From Formosa agariphila KMM 3901 (lineage in GTDB: Bacteria; Bacteroidota; Bacteroidia; Flavobacteriales; Flavobacteriaceae), in NCBI RefSeq assembly GCF_000723205.1, contig NZ_HG315671.1, positions 1,957,351 through 2,021,350 on the forward strand: 64,000 nucleotides of DNA, read 5' to 3'. Each line of letters opens with the position of its first letter. Position 1 is the first letter of the stretch. The position numbers and the translations under genes are program-made. The notes under the pieces are model-generated. The model worked only from the letters and a program-made list of their open reading frames with translations. It had not been told where the DNA came from and ran no database searches. Shown here one piece after another: positions 10,548-11,859 of this stretch.

Positions 10548-10589
10548 AAACAAAAACTCTCAAGAAGAATGTCTCGAGAGTTTTTGTTT
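10548..10589. terminator. Bidirectional terminator between guaC and the lysozyme-inhibitor gene
   Basis: A 14-bp stem (AAACAAAAACTCTC with its complement) with A-rich and T-rich flanks serves the convergent genes guaC (+) and the lipoprotein (-). Confidence 0.85.
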
Positions 10590-10608: not shown

Positions 10609-11859
10609 TTAATAATCCATAATCTTATCGGCGACCAATTGTTTCATCGCTTCTCCATCTTCTAAAACATATTGAATCTGTCTTGTTTTACCTGTTGGCT
10701 CATTGTTTTCGTAAAGCGGAAAGCGTTGAATAAGTGTTCCTTCTACCATAGCAAACTCATCGTGACCTGCATAACCTGAATTCGCTTCAGCATTTTCTGA
10801 AACTTTAGGAATATTAATGCCACTCATAGATTTTCCATCATTCACTGTAAATCCAAAAATTTCACCTGTATTATTCTCTCCAGATTTCGTATAAATTAAG
10901 AGTTCAGGAAACGTATCATTATTTAAATCATCTACTTCAACATTTGTTATTTCTGCTTGTATTGATACAATTTGCGGATTCTCATCCTCTGTTAATCCTA
11001 TTGGAGTAACTGTAACCTTACCACGCTGTTCTTCAATAAGAAATGAAAAGTCATTATAAGTAATAGATTTTGAATATCCCGTTTTATCGATTTGCTCAGC
11101 ATCTAATTCACCATTTAATTTAGAATATGTACCTGCTAAATTAGCACCTCCTGAACAAATATAAGACAGACCATCTTTATCCGATTCTGGAGTTGTAGTA
11201 ATCAATACTGTGTTATCCTTAAAAATAAATAATATGGTAATTCCGTTCTCGTAAATTGTTAATGTATTTTCGTCTGTTACGTTTCCAATAGTATCATAAG
11301 TACAAGTCGCTCTTTTTTTATCGCCTCGAGAACGTACAGAAATTTTAGCTTTAAACTTGTCAATAGGCTTGACAATAATAGCCACCCAATCGTTCCCTTC
11401 ATCCTTAGAAGTGTAAGCATCATCTACGTAATTTCCATAATGCGTTATATTGAATTCTGATTGTACCGGAGGTTTTTGGTCGCTAATCTCTGTGGTTTTT
11501 AATTGTCCTTTAGCAAGAACATCATCGTCTTTTCCCCAAGTAAAAGCACTCCCTTTCGTCCAAAGTGTATAGCCGTCTTCACTCTTATATTTAACACCAC
11601 TCGCACTTTCTACACGTTGTAAATAATAATCTGTATTGGCATTGGTATCGTGAACTGTAATTTTACCATCGTCGCTTCCTGGGTTGGCAATTACAATATA
11701 TTCGTTTTGATTATTGTTTGAAACAAAAATTGTAGAAGCACTAGATGCTGCCAGTTCTTCAACTACAGTGTTACTCTTTTTAACCTCATTACAAGATGTT
11801 ATACTTAATGAAACACATAGGAGACCAGCAATAAAATAGGGTTTGTGAAAACGAATCAT
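10609..11859 (-). CDS. Lipoprotein with MliC-like and PliI-like lysozyme-inhibitor domains
   Basis: The protein is 416 aa with a lipoprotein signal ending at Cys23 (SITSCNE). Three parts can be seen. Residues ~43-120 resemble MliC, the inhibitor of c-type lysozyme: SASGVKY (85-91) and LWTKGSAF (99-106) correspond to the SGxxY and WxKG segments that enter the lysozyme active site. Residues ~135-250 form an unassigned middle domain with a possible Cys pair (Cys186, Cys235). Residues ~268-416 resemble PliI, the inhibitor of invertebrate-type lysozyme: DLNNDTFPELLIY, GFTVNDGKSMS, GYAGHDEF, QRFPLY, PTGKTRQIQY. The role inferred is protection of peptidoglycan from host or predator lysozymes at the cell surface. 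It is monocistronic. The PliI match is the stronger of the two; the MliC match lacks the usual leading Cys. Confidence 0.72.
   Translation of the reverse strand: MIRFHKPYFIAGLLCVSLSITSCNEVKKSNTVVEELAASSASTIFVSNNNQNEYIVIANPGSDDGKITVHDTNANTDYYLQRVESASGVKYKSEDGYTLWTKGSAFTWGKDDDVLAKGQLKTTEISDQKPPVQSEFNITHYGNYVDDAYTSKDEGNDWVAIIVKPIDKFKAKISVRSRGDKKRATCTYDTIGNVTDENTLTIYENGITILFIFKDNTVLITTTPESDKDGLSYICSGGANLAGTYSKLNGELDAEQIDKTGYSKSITYNDFSFLIEEQRGKVTVTPIGLTEDENPQIVSIQAEITNVEVDDLNNDTFPELLIYTKSGENNTGEIFGFTVNDGKSMSGINIPKVSENAEANSGYAGHDEFAMVEGTLIQRFPLYENNEPTGKTRQIQYVLEDGEAMKQLVADKIMDY

Follow-up and report, generated by a model that had tools for sequence, protein, structure and literature searches.

A stretch of 64,000 nucleotides from Formosa agariphila KMM 3901 (hereafter the window) was found to encode a predicted lipoprotein in which an MliC domain, an unnamed middle domain and a relative of the PliI lysozyme inhibitor are joined in one chain, with the MliC signature intact and the PliI inhibitory loop lost. 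All parts of this protein except the middle domain come from known families. The three-domain form is uncommon, and no description of the fusion was found in the literature searched, which leaves out most subscription journals; the lysozyme inhibitors found there belong to families with one target class each. With one loop intact and one lost, the protein provides a testable case of how anti-lysozyme modules are assembled and retired. The hypothesis that we favour, and hold with evenly balanced confidence, is that it sits in the envelope as a lipoprotein and protects peptidoglycan against foreign muramidases by means of three small beta-barrel or beta-sheet domains on one lipid anchor, comprising an intact MliC key, a lost i-type key and a possible third binding surface. 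The gene, its signal sequence and the adjoining hairpin lie at the following positions.

10609..11859, minus strand: three-domain lipoprotein gene (open reading frame list and translation; orthologues in 6/6 genus genomes)
11791..11859, minus strand: signal peptide and lipobox, residues 1-23, ITS-C23 (translation)
10548..10589, both strands: hairpin between the lipoprotein gene and the convergent guaC-like gene (folding energy)

The initial annotation had read this gene as encoding a lipoprotein, and the reading is sound: positions 10609-11859 (minus strand) form a single uninterrupted frame of 416 codons with an ATG start, and the position of the lipobox cysteine matches in more than 90% of 71 aligned relatives. 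Full-length orthologues without internal stops (45-70% identity) are present in all five other genus members searched; counting its own genome, the 416-residue protein is conserved in all six genomes of the genus that were searched and is therefore kept by selection. In the tree the window protein clusters with Formosa proteins. The genome that carries it, one contig of 4,228,350 bases, holds a single copy each of the middle domain and the PliI-like domain. The neighbours at the locus are guaC-, pdxH- and rnz-like housekeeping genes, which reappear near the orthologues L104, L111, L116, L117, L002 and L006. The lipoprotein gene is convergent with the guaC-like gene, and the hairpin between them (-22.9 kcal/mol, z -5.9 on the minus strand; -19.6, z -5.0 on the plus strand), which is not among the matches of a simple terminator scan, is a probable terminator common to both; given so strong a hairpin between convergent genes, the lipoprotein gene is probably the last in its transcript. 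A promoter scan at the locus gave a score no better than that of shuffled sequences.

The first of the three domains is the one for which the inhibitor signature is complete.

11497..11736, minus strand: MliC domain, residues 42-121 (PF09864 match; eight strands in the AlphaFold2 model)
11587..11607, minus strand: MliC motif 1, SASGVKY, residues 85-91, loop between strands 4 and 5 (match to SxSGAxY, A to V)
11551..11571, minus strand: MliC motif 2, YTLWTKG, residues 97-103, strand 6 (exact match to YxxxTKG)

An MliC-like domain had been proposed from the SASGVKY and WTKGSAF motifs, and the proposal survives its own check, since the Pfam profile PF09864 does match the window protein (27.2 bits, E 3.9e-6, residues 75-112) above its curated cut-off of 22, with higher scores still for the orthologues L002 (31.4 bits) and L005 (30.1 bits). 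In the full-length AlphaFold2 model (71 aligned sequences, mean pLDDT 90) residues 42-120 are predicted to form a barrel of eight strands. In the MliC/PliC family, SxSGAxY is located in loop 4 and YxxxTKG on strand 6 (PMC5507604), and the modelled places of both motifs are those in the solved proteins: SASGVKY, in which the A to V change is conservative, is flanked by strands 76-83 and 89-92, and YTLWTKG overlaps strand 97-102. Residues 42-121 thus resemble P. aeruginosa MliC (3F6Z) and E. coli MliC in exceeding the Pfam cut-off, in both motifs, in the predicted eight-stranded barrel and in the lipoprotein anchor, but form one of three domains rather than a stand-alone protein, and their motif is variable within the genus. 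They also contain no cysteine, so that the beta1-beta8 disulphide shared by the solved members (PMC5507604) is absent, although this is an accessory feature that the PF09864 profile does not require. Among seven aligned Formosa-clade proteins, residue 87 is serine in three, asparagine in two and aspartate in two, and L111 has N in place of K102; both motifs are complete in the window protein and L002. At E<=0.001, PF09864 had no match in three of the six genus genomes. We count the variation at S87 and K102, the MliC misses in these three genomes and the missing disulphide against the envelope-inhibitor explanation, and the loop-insertion inhibition established for the known group (PMC7677548) in its favour. 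From its sequence, the MliC module of the window protein probably works against c-type lysozyme. Elsewhere in the same family, genome G018 encodes a lipoprotein of 269 aa in which three MliC domains follow one another in tandem (L010:1024-1830, minus strand; PF09864 87.8 bits in total over three stretches, with an ASG(I/F)WY motif in each).

The C-terminal domain presents the opposite case, that of a scaffold retained and a key lost.

10612..11091, minus strand: PliI-like domain, residues 257-416 (homology through relatives)
10900..10932, minus strand: DDLNNDTFPEL, residues 310-320, acidic FG-GAP/Ca-loop-like motif conserved with PliI (aligns to DLNGDKQPEL of 3od9)
10861..10890, minus strand: PliI inhibitory-loop site, residues 324-333, TKSGENNTGE, without SGSY (alignment columns of 71 proteins)

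A second domain had been placed some 170 residues beyond the SASG motif, which is indeed where the C-terminal domain starts, and had been described as strongly PliI-like. The ancestry stands, through relatives, but the strength does not, the window protein being unmatched by the PliI profile PF16743 even at E<=10. At E<=0.001 this profile matched neither the window genome nor any of 39 genomes of relatives and 14 controls, and since it matched nowhere in these genomes that negative alone says little. PF16743 is matched at E<=0.1 by 44 of the 71 aligned proteins (best 8.6e-9), and L044, from an uncultured Draconibacterium, reaches 32.3 bits, above the cut-off of 27. A profile built from 60 of the PliI-like domains matches the solved PliI 3od9 at E 1.2e-4 (4pj2 has the same sequence), in an alignment that spans DLNxDxxPEL and then SAGSGSY. 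Judged by these profile matches, the C-terminal domain is of PliI ancestry, visible only through relatives. With PliI-Ah of Aeromonas hydrophila (PF16743; 3OD9/4PJ2) it shares the core with DLNxDxxPEL and the next hairpin, but it lies below Pfam detection on its own, is devoid of the SAGSGSY active-site loop, and its C-terminal part is longer and includes a conserved GYxGxDEF...FPxY segment. Pfam matches of the window protein to FG-GAP (16.8 bits) and to eIF2A were rejected as below cut-off.

In PliI the loop inserts into the active site of i-type lysozyme, where S104 contacts the catalytic glutamate E18 (PMC10933484). The SAGSGSY of PliI-Ah (3od9) corresponds to SGENNTG in the window protein, with both serines and the tyrosine lost; the loop is one residue shorter across every Formosa-clade protein, and SGSY is missing from all seven. 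Of the 58 relatives that are complete, 23 have SGSY, including the three-domain proteins L044 and L102. The initial annotation had suggested that a single protein might block two lysozyme classes, and of this proposal the c-type half retains its signature intact whereas the i-type loop SAGSGSY is absent. A true dual inhibitor, in which the MliC domain blocks c-type lysozyme and the PliI-like domain blocks i-type lysozyme despite its changed loop, would fit the two ancestries, both of which hold, the retention of both motifs in L044 and L102, and the conservation of the PliI-like domain, which among genus members exceeds that of the other two domains (mean pairwise identity 0.59, versus 0.54 for MliC). 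Set against the lost loop residues, the shortened loop and the failure of the window protein to reach PF16743, however, we regard this as quite improbable for the Formosa protein. The lysozyme-inhibiting reading is accordingly half supported, the MliC side being backed by sequence and the i-type side not. The better candidates for dual c- and i-type inhibition, by their motifs, are L044 and L102, both from uncultured organisms, which retain SGSY and the MliC motifs; L044 is above the Pfam cut-off for MliC and PliI, and L102 for MliC only.

Alternatively, the protein may confer immunity to effectors that rival bacteria inject and that cut peptidoglycan, in the manner of XAC2610 and Tsi1, and not against animal lysozyme. 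PliI, XAC2610 and Tsi1 have a common topology and loop-insertion mechanism (PMC10933484). To these likenesses may be added the acidic Ca-loop-like motif and, for XAC2610, the lipoprotein nature. The NCBIfam model XAC2610_fam is matched weakly by 15 of 71 relatives (best E 0.0054), and many of the host bacteria are free-living or from sediment. Against this explanation, no cognate effector gene adjoins the lipoprotein gene, the housekeeping neighbours including no effector-like gene, and across genera no effector-like neighbour recurs; the T6SS component VipB was unmatched in the genome, in a search that a divergent Bacteroidota T6SS could escape. An orphan immunity gene is possible, and on balance we consider the immunity explanation unlikely, if somewhat less so than dual inhibition. 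Stand-alone PliI-like proteins of about 195 aa were also observed in other Bacteroidota (L021, L022 and L036); they have neither the lipobox cysteine nor the SGSY loop and are likely to form a further PliI-like subfamily with another target.

Between the two inhibitor-related domains lies a domain with its own pattern of conservation.

11092..11442, minus strand: middle domain, residues 140-256, calycin-like barrel in the AlphaFold2 model (no Pfam/NCBIfam family)
11293..11334, minus strand: near-invariant loop 1, RSRxDKKxxTCTxD, residues 176-189 (64-protein conservation)
11125..11157, minus strand: near-invariant loop 2, CSGGANLAGTY, residues 235-245 (64-protein conservation)

This domain had been left without assignment, rightly so, as residues 140-256 matched no Pfam or NCBIfam family; its profile gave nothing meaningful against the PDB, where no solved sequence matched, and no relation to the PliI-like domains was detectable by profile. 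Modelled alone from 59 aligned sequences (pLDDT 90), the domain has as its nearest structure the barrel domain of the D-aminopeptidase 1ei5 (VIA comparison; Z 10.2, rmsd 2.0 over 80 residues, 12% identity); FABP- and lipocalin-like barrels come next, at Z about 7. Since none of the Foldseek matches was significant (best E 0.046), we assign the predicted fold tentatively as a calycin-like barrel. The model superposes on the accessory barrel of D-aminopeptidase DAP (1EI5) and on calycins/FABP, yet the domain differs from them in having no peptidase domain attached and in its own near-invariant RSRxDKKxxTC and CSGG loops. The only matches of the full-length model, to beta-propeller stretches (Foldseek and VIA, TM about 0.2), were not used for domain assignment, as they are no evidence for or against PliI or MliC folds.

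Across 64 proteins, R176, S177, R178, D180, K182 and D189 of loop 1 are each conserved at 98% and C186 at 100%, while in loop 2 C235, G237 and Y245 are conserved at 100% and G238 at 98%. Because both cysteines are fully conserved, a C186-C235 disulphide probably joins the two loops. In the model, loop 1 is mostly coil and is flanked by two strands, one on each side. In bacterial lysozyme inhibitors a loop between antiparallel strands enters the active site of the enzyme (PMC7677548), and the near-invariant hairpin loop of the middle domain, given its near-constant fusion to inhibitor-like domains, is by analogy a reasonable candidate for an inhibitory key. The domain, which occurs in many marine Bacteroidota and stands by itself in some bacteria, is nominated as a candidate new inhibitor family. 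A more far-reaching version of this idea is that it represents a third family of lysozyme or muramidase inhibitors, so far undescribed, whose key is formed by the RSRxDKKxxTC and CSGG loops and their disulphide tie, that three-domain proteins are modular 'combination locks' which add and retire modules, that L044 and L102 are natural dual c-plus-i inhibitors, and that Formosa has shifted to c-type inhibition plus the new module; we put this forward as a speculation with perhaps a modest chance of being correct, doubtful as it stands.

The same structural likeness can be turned the other way. In Formosa the inherited scaffold might regulate or protect the cell's own peptidoglycan enzymes, or bind some other ligand, and not act as an inhibitor: key residues vary in its MliC domain and have gone from its PliI-like domain, and both ligand-binding calycin barrels and the D-aminopeptidase accessory barrel are similar in structure to the middle domain. 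A common fold proves no function, however, no conserved link to cell-wall genes was found, and the completeness of the MliC motif pair in the window protein and L002 argues against such a role, which we think no more probable than dual inhibition.

The envelope-inhibitor explanation starts from what was observed directly, namely the gene, the lipoprotein signal, the ancestry of the domains, the state of the motifs and their conservation across the genus. Under this hypothesis, the SASG loop and K102 of the MliC domain would enter the active cleft of a c-type or c-like lysozyme, as in MliC. The C-terminal PliI-like domain would have kept its scaffold and lost the key to i-type lysozyme, and in Formosa may now bind another target via the changed loop or merely support the protein. 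The middle domain would add a third binding surface through its two conserved loops, tied by C186-C235. Such an arrangement could distribute binding sites over several muramidases and need not amount to dual inhibition of c- and i-type enzymes. Possible targets are an animal lysozyme, a bacterial effector or a protist enzyme. Formosa are marine Flavobacteriaceae known mainly from seaweeds and seawater. The earlier suggestion of a symbiont or prey of marine invertebrates gains no support here, since neither the locus nor the sequence shows any sign of an animal partner.

A scan of 84,980 species genomes found the middle domain at 78 loci, a lower bound because the scan ran on two peptide patterns. 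It nearly always adjoins a PliI-like domain, directly before it, and the commonest architecture is a two-domain lipoprotein of about 330 residues consisting of the middle and PliI-like domains; the middle domain occurs alone at a few loci, and eight proteins of the scan (405-417 residues) have three domains. Once genus orthologues are added, eleven distinct three-domain proteins are known. Of 395 genomes sampled from the phylum, 20 have the PliI-like domain and 4 have the middle domain. We rejected one common origin for the three-domain proteins, as the tree shows 4 changes and the AU test excludes a clade made up of the 11 rows (p 3e-92); this comparison does not distinguish repeated gain of MliC from repeated loss. 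As the three-domain proteins do not form one clade, and L044 is placed in the tree among two-domain proteins, MliC has been gained, or lost, more than once in proteins with the middle and PliI-like domains. Viral contigs yielded nothing related to the stretch formed by the middle and C-terminal domains.

A divergent two-domain protein, with middle and C-terminal domains, is encoded by Malaciobacter halophilus (Campylobacterota; L110:111-1010, plus strand), which suggests transfer between phyla. Lone middle domains were found in short lipoproteins of 158-164 aa (L099:345-836 and L114:3902-4375, both plus strand) in two MAGs labelled Neisseriaceae, which lie outside Bacteroidota and for which a binning error is possible. 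In six Tenacibaculum genomes a small lipoprotein, which we take to be META/HslJ-like, is encoded near the gene for the middle and PliI-like domains (for example, L061:4885-5310, plus strand).
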